From a virus, in IMG/VR virus record IMGVR_UViG_3300011253_000793, positions 1 through 31,282 of that record: a DNA stretch of 31,282 nt; one strand, written 5' to 3'. Both the position numbers and the translations under genes were made by a program. A model generated the notes under the pieces. The model searched no databases. It saw only the letters and a list, made by a program, of their open reading frames with translations, and was not told the DNA's origin. Of the stretch, positions 877 to 10,005 are shown in pieces. Position 1 is the stretch's first letter, and the number at the start of each line of letters is the position of its first letter.

Positions 877-1195
877 TGATCGTCTCCTCGCCTGTTACCG
901 TGTTTAGTTTGCGCCCTGTACGCCATTTGACTGCGTCCCAGTCGGCTGGGGTAGGGTCGGCCCTGTACCCGCGCAGATCCTTACCAATTGCGAACGATAG
1001 CCACCAATGCGCCTTGCTGAGATTCTCATCAGCATCGCCTTTCTTTTGCCATCGCCAGAGCATCTCGAACGCCTGAACGACACAGGCGGTTTTGACCGCA
1101 TCAGGTCCGAACTGCTGGACCATTGCATCAATGCACTCAATATCGCCCGCATAGTGATCTGGCCGGTTTACTGCGTCAGAATGGGATTTCGTCAT
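866..1195 (-). CDS. DUF3310 family protein
   Basis: This 109-residue protein begins with the DUF3310 signature: VNRPDHY (about 9-15) followed by IECIDAM, then a segment ending KKGDADENLSKAHWWL (about 51-66), the counterpart of the family's EDlxKAxWYL stretch. The family is widespread in phages, usually among nucleotide or replication genes; it is related to nucleotide-kinase-like proteins of T7-type phages, and its role is unproven. The start ATG is preceded by GGAG with a 7-base spacer and overlaps the upstream gene by 20 bases. It is part of the leftward operon running from the repeat region at 2.5-2.8 kb. Confidence 0.8.
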   Translation of the reverse strand: MTKSHSDAVNRPDHYAGDIECIDAMVQQFGPDAVKTACVVQAFEMLWRWQKKGDADENLSKAHWWLSFAIGKDLRGYRADPTPADWDAVKWRTGRKLNTVTGEETIIET

Positions 1196-1664
1196 CTACT
1201 AGCTCCACTTCTTTCCAATTGATCACACGGGTGCCAGCGAACTGGCTCTTGATGTGAATGATGTTGGCTGGGATCATCATCACCAGCTCATCGAGGGTGA
1301 AGGCAACAGTGCCATCCTCAACCTGATTCATGTGCTCTTTTTCTCTTACGATGGCAACCGGTGTATTTCGCGGCCCTGCGACGGTTGTCCACACACTTGG
1401 CGGCACCGGCTTATTGCCCAGGCTGGCCGCTTCCAGTTCCAGGGCAGCAAATCCTTTGGTGACGCTCTTGGCGTGATCTCGCACCGATGGCAGATGATTG
1501 GCTTCAACCGCTGCCTGGTATCGCTTCCACTGAGCATCCCACTTAAACCTCAGATCAGCGCCGACCTTCAGCCGGAGTTGATCAGTTCCCCATTTGCGAT
1601 CAGCTTCAATTACCAAAGCATTGATGCCAGCGATGAGAGAATCTAGTTCGATGTTTTTCTTCAT
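1176..1664 (-). CDS. Hypothetical phage protein
   Basis: This 162-residue protein starts at an ATG 4 bases after the stop of the PP-loop gene, with TTAGGACA as ribosome site. The N-terminal half is helical and rich in charged residues, including a tryptophan cluster (KWGTDQLRL, FKWDAQWKRY) and a helix ending KGFAALELEA. The C-terminal half (about 85-162) is predicted beta-rich and ends in an acidic tail (ELVDDEIPF). Proteins with this RxWGxxxLxxLV-like start occur as unnamed genes in phages of alphaproteobacteria and other hosts, but I know of no function. Its place between a PP-loop protein and DUF3310 suggests an early metabolic or host-modifying role. Confidence 0.7.
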   Translation of the reverse strand: MKKNIELDSLIAGINALVIEADRKWGTDQLRLKVGADLRFKWDAQWKRYQAAVEANHLPSVRDHAKSVTKGFAALELEAASLGNKPVPPSVWTTVAGPRNTPVAIVREKEHMNQVEDGTVAFTLDELVMMIPANIIHIKSQFAGTRVINWKEVELVDDEIPF

Positions 1665-1668
1665 TGTC

Positions 1669-2517
1669 CTAATCGCCGCAAAAACAAGGGATGGATTCGT
1701 CATCAAATTCAAATAACGCACCCTGATCTGAGGCAATTATTTTCATCTGTGCATAACTTGGACTCTGCCTATCAAACTGATCGCTGTGAATTTCTTCTTC
1801 TTCTGCCCACCAATCTGCTAGATCTGGACGCGCCTGGATAATTGACAATCTTTTTGATCTACCCTTCAGAAAACACAGATCGCAATTTCCCCAATCTGTA
1901 ACGCCATCATTATTTGGCAGATCAAGATCAAAATTCTGATTTTTCCAGAACAACGACACCATCCATTTGGTGTGGCCCGCCTCATACATCGGGCAGAAAT
2001 TATCCTGACCTTCGTTGGTCTTTTTGTGTAGCTTCATTGCCCGACGCTTTTCATCTGCTCGAATTCCAATCATTGTCAGAAATGGTGCTTGAAGCCCATG
2101 ATCCAGCGCATATCGATGAATCGATCGAACCTTTAATTGACCAGAGCAAAATCGAGCCATTGGATTTGGCAAATTGCCAACATCTCGCATCAATCTTACG
2201 AACGGCTCGCCATTTCTTGAGGCTGTCTCATGGTCCACAACCTTGTACCTATAATCGTAATTTTTTGAATCTGCCTTTTGATCTCTGCCGTCATATTCAA
2301 GCCAAACAATTGGCACGTCCCAGTTATCTGAACAGGCTTGAACAAAATCCAAGGTTTGCGGCATTTCCTTCCCTGTGTTTGCAAACGTCACAATCACATC
2401 ATCTGGCAAAATTCCATTGTGAGCCTCAAGTATGTTGTAAAGCATAAAGGCGCTACTGCGCCCACCGCTGAAGCTGATCACCGCTGGCTCATCTATAAAG
2501 TATGGATTCTTTTTCAT
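1669..2517 (-). CDS. PAPS reductase/DndC-like PP-loop protein
   Basis: This 282-residue protein belongs to the PAPS reductase family of adenylating PP-loop enzymes. The PP-loop is SGGRSSA (17-23), followed by VTFANTGKEMPQTLDF (43-58) and the conserved GIRADEKRR (151-159). Cysteines at 124 (ARFCSGQ), 175, 212, 215 (NCDLC) and 278/280 (CFC) are spaced like an iron-sulfur site. That resembles DndC or TtcA-like sulfur-transfer proteins more than classic PAPS reductase with its single C-terminal redox cysteine. Phage members are called auxiliary metabolic genes, but the true substrate is usually unknown. No other dnd genes are nearby, so DNA phosphorothioation is not supported here. The ribosome site is AAGGA 7 bases before ATG. 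The leader is made of the TGATGAC repeats. Confidence 0.85.
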   Translation of the reverse strand: MKKNPYFIDEPAVISFSGGRSSAFMLYNILEAHNGILPDDVIVTFANTGKEMPQTLDFVQACSDNWDVPIVWLEYDGRDQKADSKNYDYRYKVVDHETASRNGEPFVRLMRDVGNLPNPMARFCSGQLKVRSIHRYALDHGLQAPFLTMIGIRADEKRRAMKLHKKTNEGQDNFCPMYEAGHTKWMVSLFWKNQNFDLDLPNNDGVTDWGNCDLCFLKGRSKRLSIIQARPDLADWWAEEEEIHSDQFDRQSPSYAQMKIIASDQGALFEFDDESIPCFCGD

Positions 2518-2529
2518 TTCCCAATCCTT

Positions 2530-2769
2530 GAGTCATCAGTCATCAGTAATCACCCCCTATAGGGGGGGTGATGACTATGATGACTCGGCTGAAATTGACC
2601 GTTTCAATGATGACTGAATGATGACTCGGATTTTTCATAATTTAAAAACTGATATATATCATTGGTTTAGGGCTGAACCTTCGAGTCATCATTTTGATGA
2701 CTGAGTCATCATTGATGATGACTGAGTCATCATTTGGGTATGATGACTCGACCCCCCAAATGATGACTC
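2530..2769. repeat. Array of 13 TGATGAC/GTCATCA motifs around an AT-rich core
   Basis: The heptamer TGATGAC, usually as TGATGACTC or TGATGACTG, occurs at least 13 times in 240 bases. Copies at 2569, 2578, 2608, 2619, 2695, 2716, 2741 and 2761 read on the plus strand. Copies ending at 2538, 2545, 2691, 2711 and 2732 read on the minus strand. TGATGACTGAGTCATCA is an almost perfect palindrome present twice (2695-2711, 2716-2732). CACCCCCTATAGGGGGGGTG (2551-2570) forms the core of a larger palindrome spanning 2530-2586. Between the two clusters lies an AT-rich stretch (2629-2668) with the perfect palindrome TGATATATATCA (2650-2661). Iterons flanking an unwinding element are typical of origins; the array also lies directly in front of the PP-loop gene, so operator clusters are an alternative. 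Confidence 0.85.
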
Positions 2770-2784
2770 CAAATTGAATAAAAT

Positions 2785-3210
2785 TCATGATTTAGACCCA
2801 TTTGTATGAATAAAATTCTCCATGTCATCGACCATTTTTTGCATATCCGTAACCATATTTTCGGACCTGACCATCAATTTTGCGGCCCGATTCCGCAGCT
2901 TGACCAGCTCCGCAACCAGTTCATCGAGGTCGTCATTGTCAAATTCTAGAGTCATTTTCGACCAACAAAACTCAACCGAAAACTGCTGCCGGAACCATTT
3001 GCGATGCCCTGGATCTTGGTCAATCTCGGTCTCGATCTCTAACTCACCGGCCATCAATTCCGCAATTTCTTCCATCAGATCCCTAGCCGCGACCAGCGCT
3101 TCGATGTCCTGATCGGAAATGAGCAAAAATCCTTTGTCATAACCTCGCTTCAAATTGCGACCTTGCATGGCGATCTCGAAAACCAAACTGCCCAGTTCCC
3201 TGTGATTCAT
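2785..3210 (-). CDS. Hypothetical acidic helical protein of the replication operon
   Basis: This 141-residue protein is acidic and mostly helical. Heptad-like hydrophobic spacing in the C-terminal half (VAELVKLRNRAAKLM and onward) suggests a coiled coil or helical dimer. A central stretch (PGHRKWFRQQFSVEFCWSKM) is the only basic, aromatic part. I chose the ATG at 3210 because it overlaps the stop of the upstream small HTH gene as ATGA, although a GTG at 3273 would be open. It is the last gene before the TGATGAC repeat array. With the small HTH protein it is a candidate partner in origin binding, but only by position. I recognise no family. Confidence 0.6.
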   Translation of the reverse strand: MNHRELGSLVFEIAMQGRNLKRGYDKGFLLISDQDIEALVAARDLMEEIAELMAGELEIETEIDQDPGHRKWFRQQFSVEFCWSKMTLEFDNDDLDELVAELVKLRNRAAKLMVRSENMVTDMQKMVDDMENFIHTNGSKS

Positions 3211-3383
3211 GGCACGTTTTTCACAGTGCGCCAAGCCACCCCAAATTTTTGCGCGATCCTTCTGACATTCCACCCGAGCTGACGATGCGCGATAACCGCA
3301 TCTTCAAAATCGGCCCTGCATCGGAATGGCCCAGGCGTTGGCGGGCGTCCCTGTTTCATAGTTAAAACTCGCTCTTTACTCAT
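3207..3383 (-). CDS. Small helix-turn-helix protein
   Basis: This 58-residue protein carries a clear helix-turn-helix of the homeodomain/resolvase type in its C-terminal half, LGWNVRRIAQKFGVAWRTVK, preceded by a basic, proline-rich arm (KQGRPPTPGP) that could lie in the minor groove. The ATG at 3383 overlaps the primase-helicase stop within ATGAGTAA. An in-frame ATG at 3359 would give 50 residues. The stop overlaps the next gene as ATGA, which supports a real coding sequence in a coupled series. Such small HTH proteins can be repressors, activators or origin-binding factors. The TGATGAC array two genes downstream is an obvious candidate target, but this is inference. Confidence 0.65.
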   Translation of the reverse strand: MSKERVLTMKQGRPPTPGPFRCRADFEDAVIAHRQLGWNVRRIAQKFGVAWRTVKNVP

Positions 3384-5265
3384 TTGCTAACCACACCTCA
3401 TCATCATATTTGCCAACCACCTCACGCTCGACCAGGCGCGCGACGCACCGATTAAACGACGTGTAGAAATACTTGCCGCCGTTGTCCATCAACGCCTTCG
3501 CCTCGTCGCGCCATTGATCCAACGACACCACCCGCGTCATGCCTGGCGCTTTGCCGGACCTGCTGGCGTGACCGAGTTCCCACACTGCCGAGCGCAGAGC
3601 CTTGATCGCTAGGCGCTCGTTGGTGCTCATGTCGAATCGTTGCTTTTCGTCCTTAACGATCGTGCTTAGTTCCAGGGCAACGCTGGTTTGCCCGATCAGG
3701 CCGTCGCCAATCTGCACTTGAACCATGTCAAACGAGATTGGTTCTCCCATTTCCACATCTTTTTGCTTCTCGAAAGTGAGCCGAATTTGGTTGTCGGTGA
3801 TCTTCTTGCAGCTCAGTGAAGTATTAACCGCGCCCTTGAGGCTGCTTGAGCCTCTGAGGCCCTTTGCCGTGTCCTTGCCGGAGTGGTGTATGCCCAGCAC
3901 CGACGCGCCGTGTACGCGCTGCAAATTGCCGCACGCCTTGATGAATTTGCCCATATCCGTGGCGCTGTTCTCGTCACCGTCAGCCATAGCCCTGGCGACC
4001 GTATCAATCACGATCAGGTCAAAGCGGCCCATCTCGGAAATGGTATTGCTCAAGCGAAACATGCTGGCCGGATCCAAAAACTCGACCGCTTCCGGCAGTA
4101 CATAAAAGTCCTGCACCGGCTCGTATTCGTTGTGAGCGTGCCAAGCCTTGATGCGCGAGGGCAGGCCGCTCACGCCTTCACCGGCGATGTAGAGCACCCG
4201 CCCAGGCTTGGTTGTCTGCCCATGCCAATCGCGCCCAGCGGCGACGTGTAGCGAGAGATCAAGCGCCACGAAGGTTTTGCCCTCGCCTGGCGGGCCATAG
4301 AGCACTGCTAATTCATTTTTGGGAATGATCGAGTCGACCAGCCATTCAGGCGGCGGCATGGCGAACAGATCCTCGATCGACAGGACGCGATAGGAAAGGG
4401 CGGTTTCATCGTCCAAATCGACCGCTTCATCGTCCTCGTCAAAATCAAACTCGATCGAAAAATCAGCGTCATGCTCGGTGATTATCTGGCACCGTTCGCC
4501 CAATTCCGTGAAGTCGTGGGTCAGCAAAAAATCCGCCGCGTCAAACTTTTCTGGGAAGTCCCGAAATGTGACCAATTGAATGGTACTTGCCAGCCCTTGC
4601 AGTGAGCTAATGACCTGGCGCGCGTGTGCTCGCCCAGCCGCATCGTTGTCCTCATAAACCACGACATCGCGGCCCCTGAAGTAGATCGACAGCAGATCCG
4701 ACCAATTCTTGGCGCCGCCGGAGTTGGTCGTTGCCAGCACGTCAACCTCGGCTTGTAGGGCAAGCACGTTTTTCTCGCCTTCCAATATGTGCACCGGCTC
4801 GTCGGGCCTGGCCGCGAGTTCGTGCAATTTATAGGGCAGGGCGGCAATGCCTTTGATGCCAGGCTTGCCCTTGGCGTCGTACTGCCGAAAGGTCTTGCGC
4901 CCGTCCAAGTATTGAAGACGACGCACCTGGTAGATAACCACGCCGTCCTGATTGGTGTAAAAGTAGCGATCAACCTCGACCGGCTTTTCGTCAACGGTCG
5001 GGACTGGCTGCAACCGGCAACCGAAGTCGTCCAACTGCTCAAATATGGGCCTGCCGTCGCCGTAGAGCTTCAGCAGTGAAATGGCGTTGCCGCCTTTTTC
5101 CAGTTCGTAATCGTAAAACTGCCCATTTCCGACCGTGAGGCGTTTGCTGCCCTGCAATCCCCAGCGATACTCATCGGCGGTGTTGAAGCTCGGCTCGCCA
5201 AAGATGGCGATGCAGATTTTTAACATCGTGTCGCCACTAAGATCGTGTTCCCGTTCCGTCATCAT
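3376..5265 (-). CDS. Toprim primase / RecA-like replicative helicase
   Basis: This 629-residue protein is the phage's replication protein. The N-terminal part (1-100) resembles primase-associated domains but has no zinc-finger cysteines. A Toprim domain follows, with LEGEKN (161-166) and the metal-binding YEDNDAAG (204-211). After an acidic linker (about 265-290) comes a RepA/DnaB-type ATPase of the AAA_25 kind, with Walker A GPPGEGKT (324-331), Walker B LIVIDT (417-422) and the GIHHSGKD motif (458-465). The C-terminal 90 residues look like a winged-helix tail. It would prime and unwind at the origin. The gene starts ATGATG after a G-rich stretch 6 bases upstream and overlaps the next small HTH gene. 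No separate DNA polymerase is encoded, so the phage should use the host enzyme. Confidence 0.9.
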   Translation of the reverse strand: MMTEREHDLSGDTMLKICIAIFGEPSFNTADEYRWGLQGSKRLTVGNGQFYDYELEKGGNAISLLKLYGDGRPIFEQLDDFGCRLQPVPTVDEKPVEVDRYFYTNQDGVVIYQVRRLQYLDGRKTFRQYDAKGKPGIKGIAALPYKLHELAARPDEPVHILEGEKNVLALQAEVDVLATTNSGGAKNWSDLLSIYFRGRDVVVYEDNDAAGRAHARQVISSLQGLASTIQLVTFRDFPEKFDAADFLLTHDFTELGERCQIITEHDADFSIEFDFDEDDEAVDLDDETALSYRVLSIEDLFAMPPPEWLVDSIIPKNELAVLYGPPGEGKTFVALDLSLHVAAGRDWHGQTTKPGRVLYIAGEGVSGLPSRIKAWHAHNEYEPVQDFYVLPEAVEFLDPASMFRLSNTISEMGRFDLIVIDTVARAMADGDENSATDMGKFIKACGNLQRVHGASVLGIHHSGKDTAKGLRGSSSLKGAVNTSLSCKKITDNQIRLTFEKQKDVEMGEPISFDMVQVQIGDGLIGQTSVALELSTIVKDEKQRFDMSTNERLAIKALRSAVWELGHASRSGKAPGMTRVVSLDQWRDEAKALMDNGGKYFYTSFNRCVARLVEREVVGKYDDEVWLANE

Positions 5266-6288: not shown

Positions 6289-6453
6289 CCGCAACCTATA
6301 ACCTTATGATTTGTATGAAAACCAATGTATAAACACCGGTCAGCCCTTACGCTTGCAGAACGGTATTTATAAAGGTAGAGTTTGTACAGAGTGTTTTGAT
6401 ATTGTTGATAAAGAAAGTTGCATTAAATAGATATATTGCATAAAAAGGTATTT
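6289..6453. promoter_or_regulatory. Divergent early control region
   Basis: This 165-base AT-rich gap separates the leftward replication operon from the rightward early cluster, so it should contain two divergent promoters. ACCGGTCA (6335-6342) matches eight bases of the perfect palindrome in the moron promoter at 28209-28220. It lies just upstream of a TATACA sequence on the minus strand. On the plus strand TTGATA and TAGATA-like hexamers are visible near 6410-6435, but neither promoter is convincing by consensus. No tRNA or terminator was seen. Confidence 0.5.
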
Positions 6454-7359
6454 ATGAAATCTATACGGCGAAAGGTTGTGGTGTATTACAGGGACAGAAG
6501 GGGCGGGAAAACTCTGGATTTGCAAAAACAAATTGCTGAAGACTGGGCGGCTGCGCGTGACTATCAGACCTGCGGCCAAGTCATTGAGACCGAAGGCACA
6601 AGCAAACGGAACAATCGGCCTGAGCTGGAAAGAGCGTTGCGCTTGGCAAAACTGCAAAAGGCCATTTTGCTAATTCCTAGCTTTGGGCAAATGTCGCGCA
6701 ATGCTGATTGCATTGGCAAAATGATAACGCATGGGGTTGAAGTGTGTACGCCGGACGTGGCGAGCTTGAGGGAGCCTGGCGGCACTAGGGACGTGCTGAA
6801 GGTGATGGCATCAGTGGCCGAGTTTGAGGTAAGCGAGACCAAGAAGCGCGCCAAGGACGCCTATTCGCGCATCAAAGATGAGATCCGCGAGACTGGCAAG
6901 CACACAACCAAAAAGGGCAAGGTGATCACAAGTCTTGGCAACACAAAAACCACTAGCCTTGCGTCGTCTGAAGCGATCAAGGTGCGCAAAGCCAAGATGT
7001 TAGATTATGCGGCTGAAATTCAACCGGTTTTTGATCAATTGTATTCTCGGGGATGCCGATCGGCGGGAGATTTTGCGCGCAGTCTAACTGCAAAAAAGAT
7101 TGTAAGCCCTCGGGGGCATACCGTTTGGACCGCTAGCATGGCGCGCAACCTGATGAACACGCTTGGCATGACCAGCGAGCCTAGGCTGCACCTAGTTCCC
7201 AAGGTAAAAACAGATAATTTCAAGTATAACGCTAAAAAAACGATCGAAGCGGCTGATGTCGAAAAAACCATTTTGGATAATAAAGAAATGACCACTTCGA
7301 TGATTCGCCGAAAATTTGGCATACCTTACGGCGTAATTAATAGGATTTTAGGCCGATGA
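6454..7359 (+). CDS. Serine-recombinase-family protein lacking catalytic residues
   Basis: This 301-residue protein follows the small serine recombinase layout. An N-terminal YYR (11-13) aligns with the YRVS catalytic start, then EGTSKRNNRPELERAL aligns with the SGKRxxRPEL segment, and LLIPSFGQMSRN with the LxxAKLDRLSRN motif. VMASVAEFEVSETKKRAKDA matches the long E helix, and SPRGHTVWTASMARNLMNTL the DNA-binding helix-turn-helix. The nucleophile serine is absent (YRDR instead of YRVS), and the DRLSR motif reads GQMSR, losing Asp and the first Arg. The distal Arg and the RPEL Arg remain. A second HTH-like segment ends the protein (TTSMIRRKFGIPYGVINRI). It probably binds DNA without recombining it, perhaps as a regulator. 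The ATG at 6454 has AAGG upstream. Confidence 0.8.
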   Translation: MKSIRRKVVVYYRDRRGGKTLDLQKQIAEDWAAARDYQTCGQVIETEGTSKRNNRPELERALRLAKLQKAILLIPSFGQMSRNADCIGKMITHGVEVCTPDVASLREPGGTRDVLKVMASVAEFEVSETKKRAKDAYSRIKDEIRETGKHTTKKGKVITSLGNTKTTSLASSEAIKVRKAKMLDYAAEIQPVFDQLYSRGCRSAGDFARSLTAKKIVSPRGHTVWTASMARNLMNTLGMTSEPRLHLVPKVKTDNFKYNAKKTIEAADVEKTILDNKEMTTSMIRRKFGIPYGVINRILGR

Positions 7360-8841: not shown

Positions 8842-9067
8842 TATTGAAGTGACCAGCCGTCAGTTTGATTGCCTGGAATTTATCCGCGCTCATCACGCTG
8901 AAACCGGCGCATATCCGTCGCAGTATCAAATCGCGGCGGGTATTCACTCAACCCAAAACAGCATTTTTATGATGTTTCAAAAGTTAATTAATAAGGGGGT
9001 GATCCATCGTGAGCGGCTTTGGTGCCGCGAATATAATCTGGCAGCAGATTACTGCCTGAAGCAATAA
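8831..9067 (+). CDS. LexA-like winged-helix DNA-binding protein
   Basis: This 78-residue protein consists almost wholly of a LexA N-terminal winged helix: SRQFDCLEFIRAHHAETGAY, then PSQYQIAAGIHSTQNSIFMMFQKLINKGVIHR, with recognition helix and wing in the expected order. There is no peptidase domain, so it would bind DNA without self-cleavage. The ATG at 8831 is preceded by GGGGTGA with a 5-base spacer; a GTG at 8822 is also open. It overlaps the exonuclease gene by 11 bases and is the last gene before the terminator. It could regulate the divergent early region or the moron promoter. Confidence 0.7.
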   Translation: MQHSIEVTSRQFDCLEFIRAHHAETGAYPSQYQIAAGIHSTQNSIFMMFQKLINKGVIHRERLWCREYNLAADYCLKQ

Positions 9068-9074
9068 GAAATAG

Positions 9075-9098
9075 CCCCGCTTCGGCGGGGTTTTTTTT
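9075..9098 (+). terminator. Rho-independent terminator of the plus-strand early cluster
   Basis: CCCCGC-TTCG-GCGGGG forms a 6-bp GC stem with a TTCG tetraloop, followed directly by eight T residues. It lies between the convergent ends of the LexA-like gene (plus) and the endolysin gene (minus) and would stop rightward transcription. The minus-strand side has no good T run, so it is mainly one-way. Confidence 0.95.
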
Positions 9099-9100
9099 GC

Positions 9101-9520
9101 CTATTGGTATTGACCGGATCTGATCATCTCCGAGATTTCCTCGGATCGCGCGCCCACTTGTACCGCCCATCGTGAATCAAGCAGCTCAACCTTTGCCGTC
9201 TCCCACAATCCCGCCTCGATCGCAGCCAGGGCTTTTTTAAATCCCAGCAGCCTGGTCAGTCCCAAGTTGAAGCATAGATCGATCAGCGCCTCTTTCCTGA
9301 CCTCATCGAGCGAGTTGAAAAAGGGCAGGGCGTTGCTCAATTCCAAGATGCAGCGCTGGATATCGTTATCAAGCAGGTAATTGATCTCATCGTCAGATAG
9401 GCCGAGACTGCCTGGCGCAATACAGCGGCCCACGCCGATCGTCTCAAGGCCCAGGTGATCTTTGTAGCAATGGGTCTCGACTCCTTCGTGCCGCTTTATC
9501 ATTTCGCGCAGACGATTCAT
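9101..9520 (-). CDS. GH24 endolysin (T4-type lysozyme)
   Basis: This 139-residue muramidase shows the T4-lysozyme catalytic triad in exact spacing: Glu12 (RHEGVE), Asp21 (CYKDHLG) and Thr27 (ETIGVG). It then has the helical body DLCFNLGLTRLLGFKKAL (about 80-97) and a C-terminal RSEEISEMI helix. There is no signal peptide or SAR segment, so export needs a holin. The ATG overlaps the stop of the upstream 161-residue membrane protein as TGATG. It is the last gene of the leftward lysis region. Confidence 0.95.
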   Translation of the reverse strand: MNRLREMIKRHEGVETHCYKDHLGLETIGVGRCIAPGSLGLSDDEINYLLDNDIQRCILELSNALPFFNSLDEVRKEALIDLCFNLGLTRLLGFKKALAAIEAGLWETAKVELLDSRWAVQVGARSEEISEMIRSGQYQ

Positions 9521-10005
9521 CAGTTGCCCTTGTGATCGTGGCTTGCGCCGTAATAAAAGCTAATGATGCTTGAGACAATCCCGCCCAAGTATCCGAGCAC
9601 TAGGCTAACGATCGTGTCAGAGTTCGCGTCCGGCGGCAGTATCGTCACCAGGGCGATATATCCGCCAAAGAATAGAACGCAACAAACTGCGATAAATTTG
9701 GGCGTCCAGTCGCCGCTGTTTGCATACGCTTGCCTGGCGTTTTGCACGTCGGCGGTTTCAAGCGCAAAAACGTCCACATCGAGCTGGGCCATTTGCACCT
9801 GAAAATCCAGCTCTGCCTTTTTAAGCTCTGCCAATTGAGCCGGAGTCGCCGCTTTGACTGCTCGCTCGATCGCGCGTGGCTCATTCGGCACGCCCAGCAC
9901 ATTGGCAATAACAGATCCGGCAGCGCCGCCGACCGGACCGCCCAGGGCTGCGCCAATGGTGGGCGCGACAGATCCCAAAATTGATTTGATTGCGTCAAAT
10001 TTCAT
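9520..10005 (-). CDS. Holin family protein with three hydrophobic segments
   Basis: This 161-residue protein has a glycine- and alanine-rich first segment (PTIGAALGGPVGGAAGSVIANVL), a charged helical middle, and two strong membrane helices near the C-terminus (KFIAVCCVLFFGGYIALVTIL and IVSLVLGYLGGIVSSIISFYYG). It ends in a His/Lys tail. This layout matches the 3TM holin group found beside endolysins in proteobacterial phages. AAGGACAAGGACAA, which also encodes the repeated Lys-Asp tail of the upstream protein, serves as ribosome site. It lies directly before the endolysin. Confidence 0.8.
   Translation of the reverse strand: MKFDAIKSILGSVAPTIGAALGGPVGGAAGSVIANVLGVPNEPRAIERAVKAATPAQLAELKKAELDFQVQMAQLDVDVFALETADVQNARQAYANSGDWTPKFIAVCCVLFFGGYIALVTILPPDANSDTIVSLVLGYLGGIVSSIISFYYGASHDHKGN

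Follow-up and report, generated by a model that had tools for sequence, protein, structure and literature searches.

A short motif that recurs 13 times within one intergenic gap of a virus genome raises the question of what the motif is for and which protein reads it. The window analysed here, 31,282 bases long, comprises one virus record, and an earlier note on this DNA had proposed that the array serves either as a replication origin or as a multi-operator switch. It is probably the replication origin of the phage, with iterons that would be read by the C-terminus of the phage's own Toprim/RepA-fold primase-helicase. The origin reading, which draws on sequence comparison, is preferred because 13 invariant 8-mers have no copies elsewhere and relatives keep 13 of them at the same place, and because phages with homologous helicases carry another motif at that place, together with a shared palindrome and a TAAGTCATTGA-like element. 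The helicase is proposed as the reader because its C-terminus in the CRP phages, and a single residue of it in loci L046-L066, track the motif.

The true repeat unit is the 8-mer TGATGACT rather than the heptamer TGATGAC. By exact matching, its 13 copies occur in both orientations at 2531-2768 and nowhere else in the 31-kb window; the gap holds one further near-copy only (one mismatch), and the positions flanking the units are almost free. The heptamer TGATGAC/GTCATCA, reported earlier as present at least 13 times in mixed orientation, was counted 13 times at 2532-2767 and 24 times in the full window, against 3.8 expected, a number attained in 0 of 100 shuffles. Within the gap 2518-2784, the top 7-mer and 8-mer occur 13 times; across 300 dinucleotide shuffles of this stretch, the highest count was 4. 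At 267 bp, this gap is indeed the longest non-coding stretch in our own ORF set (runner-up, 181 bp), and CRISPR was rightly set aside, since the 8-bp units stand in both orientations at irregular spacing and are not direct repeats with regular unique spacers. The elements of the gap are as follows.

2531..2768, no strand assigned: iteron array, TGATGACT in 13 copies (exact matches and shuffles)
TGATGACT on the plus strand, n = 8: starts 2569, 2578, 2608, 2619, 2695, 2716, 2741 and 2761
TGATGACT on the minus strand, n = 5: starts 2531, 2538, 2684, 2704 and 2725
2531..2626, no strand assigned: iteron cluster 1, 6 copies (exact matches)
2684..2768, no strand assigned: iteron cluster 2, 7 copies, including two 17-bp palindromes TGATGACTGAGTCATCA (exact matches)
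2627..2683, no strand assigned: AT-rich core, candidate melting site, 32% G+C against 50% for the window, with TGATATATATCA at 2650-2661
2553..2566, no strand assigned: GC-armed, AT-centred perfect palindrome CCCCCTATAGGGGG, with a counterpart in relatives and most distant lineages

The AT-rich core with TGATATATATCA between the clusters and the two TGATGACTGAGTCATCA palindromes, placed at 2695-2711 and 2716-2732, had already been recognised, and both descriptions hold; the palindrome CCCCCTATAGGGGG, which sits within the first iteron cluster, had been overlooked. An intrinsic terminator was considered for this palindrome and found no support: the terminator call is absent there in the window, and the palindrome is not a typical terminator because in most lineages no T-run follows it.

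On both flanks of the array, the genes lie on the minus strand. The array had been placed directly downstream of the primase-helicase operon, which is correct as to the 3' side of the helicase gene but overlooks that the 58-aa and 162-aa ORFs intervene. The relevant features are listed below.

3376..5265, minus strand: Toprim/RepA-fold primase-helicase, 629 aa, proposed initiator (Pfam AAA_25, E = 5e-42; Toprim_3, E = 5e-6)
3376..3633, minus strand: last ~85 residues of the helicase, a proposed domain for reading the iterons, as deduced from the co-segregation in homologues (CRP phages and L046-L066)
3207..3383, minus strand: 58-aa HTH-like ORF, not conserved alongside the array
2785..3273, minus strand: 162-aa ORF with no assigned function, split in two in relatives
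1669..2517, minus strand: PAPS-reductase-family gene, accessory, between the array and u186, absent in L025 and the L003 group
1176..1664, minus strand: u186, a 186-aa ORF whose relatives adjoin the array in distant lineages too

The primase-helicase matches the RSF1010 RepA profile 1g8y (E = 2e-12 over 324-509), and this match, with AAA_25, identifies a RecA-fold hexameric helicase core related to 1g8y. Upstream in the minus-strand sense, a 175-aa protein without a family match occupies the position of the ssDNA-binding protein annotated in the CRP phages. The protein u186 matched no known protein family, a Foldseek search with its structure model returned no significant match, and the bacterial genomes scanned with the u186 family gave zero matches. 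Separately, u186 and its relatives (L008:1640-2131; L032:3732-4298) end in DDEIPF, DDDIPF or DDPIPW, resembling the acidic tip of SSB, which in bacteria recruits partner proteins. In L025 (1-970), the PAPS-reductase gene is missing, and the flanks, 98.6% and 92% identical to the window, form a clean empty site; the gene was therefore inserted in the window or lost in L025 and is not part of the array unit. As a further observation, a relative whose helicase is 96% identical carries ~0.9 kb (L016:5209-6120) within the 162-aa ORF that the window lacks.

An exact search of viral contigs for TGATGACTGAGTCATCA yielded six contigs with 13-copy arrays, which show 65-78% nucleotide identity to the window elsewhere and carry the array at the same place. 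This answers the suggestion of looking for the same repeats at the same position in relatives: 13 exact copies are kept while the spacers have diverged. Between the window and L008, 79 of 88 unit-unit columns are identical and 64 of 124 spacer-spacer columns, the 26 TGATGACT copies of the two genomes being exact by the definition of the search. In the close relatives, too, an AT-rich stretch separates the iteron clusters, and the GC palindrome is kept with changed arms (CCCCCTATAGGGGG versus CCACCCTATAGGGTGG). In these arrayed relatives, the 162-aa ORF is split and the 58-aa HTH is missing; the latter, suggested earlier as a binder of the repeat, was therefore rejected as a required partner of the array. 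Seven other contigs (L004, L006, L009, L010, L013, L014 and L015) contain the 17-bp palindrome TGATGACTGAGTCATCA with no array and were discarded as chance matches.

The same layout with other motifs is encountered in more distant phages. In contigs with u186 homologues, the order is helicase, a non-coding gap of ~170-415 bp and the u186 homologue, and the motif, again in both orientations, is specific to each distant lineage, with GGTGAGGA in L031-L045 and ACCACAAA or ACTACAAA in L046-L066; other swapped motifs in distant phages with homologous helicases include GCGTGACA, GCGGAGAT and CGTTCCCA, among others. Among annotated phages, the following arrays lie directly 3' of the helicase gene.

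CRP-821/831 (Roseobacter phages): GTATAAA, 10 copies
CRP-823/811 (Roseobacter phages): CTACAAA, 11 copies; gap at 3166-3351 in CRP-823, which infects Roseobacter FZCC0197
1N2-2: CGGTACA, 8 copies
16-3 (Rhizobium phage): CGTGACA, 14 copies
RHph_X2_25: CGTGACA, 16 copies
RHph_N65: GCGGAGA, 12 copies
RHph_Y3_1: GTTCCCA, 9 copies
PB15: TGAACCA, 8 copies
CGphi29: GGGGACA, 5 copies

The counts in all of these annotated phages were reached in 0 of 300 shuffles. In Vibrio phage 1.076.O, a 6-mer array is seen by eye but does not pass the 7-mer test, where 31 of 300 shuffles matched it. Within L046-L066, the same test gives a clear signal in L047, a weak one in L046 and a negative result in L063 and L065, where copies overlap or vary. 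An array 3' of the homologous helicase is absent in eight sampled phages (ctyzp037, ct76p945, ct3Oc712, RLK, Vincenzo, Wanda, Mae-JY30 and CRP-406), the sample consisting of database matches rather than a random draw. The array is immediately 3' of the helicase gene in the CRP, Rhizobium, L031-L066 and other phages, and the window has two ORFs between them. The earlier statement that no such array is usual thus needs qualifying, as arrays of the same layout are common among phages with this kind of helicase.

Two elements recur across lineages that differ in their iterons. A palindrome of the form CCT[ATG]{2,7}AGG is present in 12 of 15 regions, against 1.9 expected, and a TAAGTCATTGA-like element (at most 2 mismatches), searched after lineage-specific units had been masked, is present in 9 of 13 lineages, with shuffles reaching at most 7.

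The identity of the reader can be approached through phages in which the motif has changed. CRP-821 and CRP-823 share 95% identity across their main 15.5-kb shared block, yet have different motifs, and the DNA block that differs with the motif runs from a point within the 3' portion of the helicase gene to where the following gene begins. Residues 600-741 of the CRP-823 helicase are 98.6% identical to those of CRP-811, which has the same motif, and 75% identical to those of CRP-821 and CRP-831, whereas residues 1-595 show 88%, 97% and 90% identity to CRP-811, CRP-821 and CRP-831, respectively. Among the CRP phages, the C-terminal ~140 residues of the helicase are 98-100% identical within a motif type and 75% identical between types, and the protein encoded downstream of the array does not track the motif type. 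In L046-L066, the residue preceding RAKDH in the helicase C-terminus is L with ACTACAAA (5 loci), G with ACCACAAA (15 loci) and S with a mixed array (1 locus), so that residue and motif variant match in 21 of 21 loci, which are not independent and include several near-copies; the tree of the remaining helicase interleaves the L, G and S types with weak support. Linkage is the main confound here, because the array and the 3' end of the helicase gene are neighbours and their co-segregation could come from linkage alone. In the four CRP phages, three small early genes (8952-9359, 9534-9758 and 9751-9933 in CRP-823, L069) also follow the array type and lie away from the helicase; a search for a DNA-binding signature in these three genes found none.

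Structural and profile searches did not confirm a fold for the C-terminal segment. In L046-L066, a weak homeobox-like HTH match appears in L061 (E = 4e-4, below the cutoff), and the AlphaFold2 model of the helicase was discarded (pLDDT 49). Comparison by hhalign was strong only among the C-termini of 1N2-2, PB15 and CGphi29 and moderate between the window and the Rhizobium 16-3 group (probability 89); for many lineages, hhalign detected no relatedness of the C-termini, and one common domain is unsupported.

These data bear directly on the second half of the original proposal, a multi-operator switch in which a phage DNA-binder (the 58-aa HTH, the 162-aa ORF product, u186 or another protein) coats the array and controls downstream transcription. 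The array does lie between genes of one operon and, in relatives, directly upstream of u186, and a mixture of orientations among short repeats is typical of repressor arrays; moreover, iteron origins are often autoregulated, so both readings could hold. A switch nevertheless seems unlikely: in the consensus scan of the window, the operon strand lacks any promoter-like site close to the array and the array itself contains no terminator, the 58-aa HTH does not accompany the array in relatives, the CRP motif varies with the helicase C-terminus rather than with the downstream protein, and the absence of TGATGACT elsewhere in the genome speaks against a genome-wide regulon. The origin half of the proposal is retained: in related and distant phages alike, the array accompanies the replication operon, and motif and helicase C-terminus co-segregate.

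An origin could also be read by a separate protein, such as u186, the 162-aa protein or the resolvase-fold protein encoded at 6436-7359, with the helicase recruited to it. In RSF1010, a separate iteron binder, RepC, recruits RepA, which is the closest solved fold to the present helicase; relatives of u186 also adjoin the array in distant lineages. Such an arrangement is judged quite improbable, since in CRP phages it is the helicase C-terminus, and not the u186 counterpart, that goes with the motif type, and the single motif-tracking residue in L046-L066 belongs to the helicase.

A partition (centromere-like) or packaging site deserves hardly any credence. Some plasmid centromeres consist of short repeats arrayed in either orientation, and a small-terminase gene would lie ~2.6 kb from the array on a circular map; however, the window ORFs read or scanned, the scan covering part of them, included no recognisable ParA-like gene, the constant neighbour of the array across lineages is the helicase and not the terminase, and Rhizobium phage 16-3 has its annotated cos site ~3.6 kb from the array.

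A turning point of GC skew at 2.5-2.8 kb had been suggested as a check on the origin, and the detrended minimum was found instead at ~6.35 kb (6350), where gene orientation flips; in CRP-821, CRP-823 and CRP-811, the minima at 8.0-9.2 kb are likewise near the flip of gene orientation. Because the genes run mostly one way and skew follows their orientation, GC skew is uninformative here rather than refuting.

For the origin read by the primase-helicase, we infer a self-loading mechanism in which initiator, helicase and primase would be a single protein. Its C-terminal domain would bind the TGATGACT iterons, several subunits assembled on both clusters would gather at the AT-rich core and help its melting, and the protein would then load there as a ring and begin unwinding and priming. 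The GC-armed, AT-centred palindrome would stand apart from the iterons as an element that the lineages have in common, perhaps with a role in priming or in structure, and the helicase C-terminus and the iteron motif would form a specificity pair that is exchanged between phages as a block.

Several known systems resemble parts of this arrangement. The RSF1010 origin has iterons, and a RepA-type hexameric helicase fold (1g8y match) combined with an iteron origin is common to both systems; RSF1010 has separate primase and iteron-binding proteins, whereas the present phages fuse primase to helicase and appear to use the helicase C-terminus as the reader. The alpha protein of satellite phage P4 is a fused primase-helicase-origin binder with short repeats (ori/crr), which the present case resembles, although P4 has a different helicase and two separate sites and is not a complete phage. 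The P4 alpha protein is also named in work on phage-inducible chromosomal islands (PICI; PMC6092414), in which a plasmid maintenance test was applied to the element EcCICFT073. In SaPI/PICI elements, the origin lies 3' of the initiator gene, the iteron varies between elements, and the C-terminal domain of Rep recognises the origin (PMC6092414, PMC7581432); in PICI origins, two iteron sets flank an AT-rich region (PMC6092414). The array 3' of the helicase gene, with a motif differing between lineages, resembles this pri-rep-ori order, as do the window clusters at 2531-2626 and 2684-2768 around the core at 2627-2683 (32% G+C), and the co-segregation observed in CRP phages and L046-L066 may reflect a similar C-terminal iteron recognition. 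The phages considered here share the PICI layout and probably its logic. They are not classed as PICI/SaPI-type members, because they are complete tailed phages with a RepA/RecA-fold helicase instead of PICI Rep types; they are not helper-dependent satellites and have their own virion genes (portal, terminase and tail genes in the window), and they add a shared GC-armed palindrome and, in the window, two intervening small ORFs. In plasmid pRN1, the origin is similarly located directly downstream of the gene for primase-helicase ORF904, a protein with a C-terminal winged helix (PMC4234260), but it needs a ~100-nt stem-loop without iterons and uses an archaeo-eukaryotic primase and an SF3 helicase.

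Phages with RepA-fold primase-helicases may well possess an undescribed class of origin, in which lineage-specific iterons and shared CCTATAGG-type and TAAGTCATTGA-like elements lie 3' of the helicase gene, the C-terminus and the iteron constitute a matched, exchangeable specificity cassette, and single-residue changes in the reader track small changes in the iteron. No description of such origins was found in the open-access literature, most subscription papers being outside that search, and the words origin, repeat and intergenic are absent from the CRP phage paper (PMC12629253). The similar layout now extends to complete tailed phages of several hosts and habitats, with a helicase fold different from that of the satellites. 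If this proposal is true, inspecting the DNA downstream of the helicase gene could reveal the origin in many unstudied phages, and replication interference would be predicted between phages with a common iteron; the natural swap between CRP-821 and CRP-823 makes the helicase-origin recognition code directly testable.

Two further features of the genome were observed. The resolvase-fold gene (6436-7359, plus strand; L008:5893-6807; Pfam Resolvase, E = 1e-10 and 1e-11) is kept in relatives and is divergent from the replication operon, and its catalytic serine seems to be replaced, with YYRDRRGGKTLDLQ where resolvases have YxRVS; the protein is possibly a regulator and not a recombinase. The ends of the window record (1 and 31282) share 12 bp, and L003, L007, L008 and L012 span the join, so the genome is probably close to complete, with a circular or permuted map.
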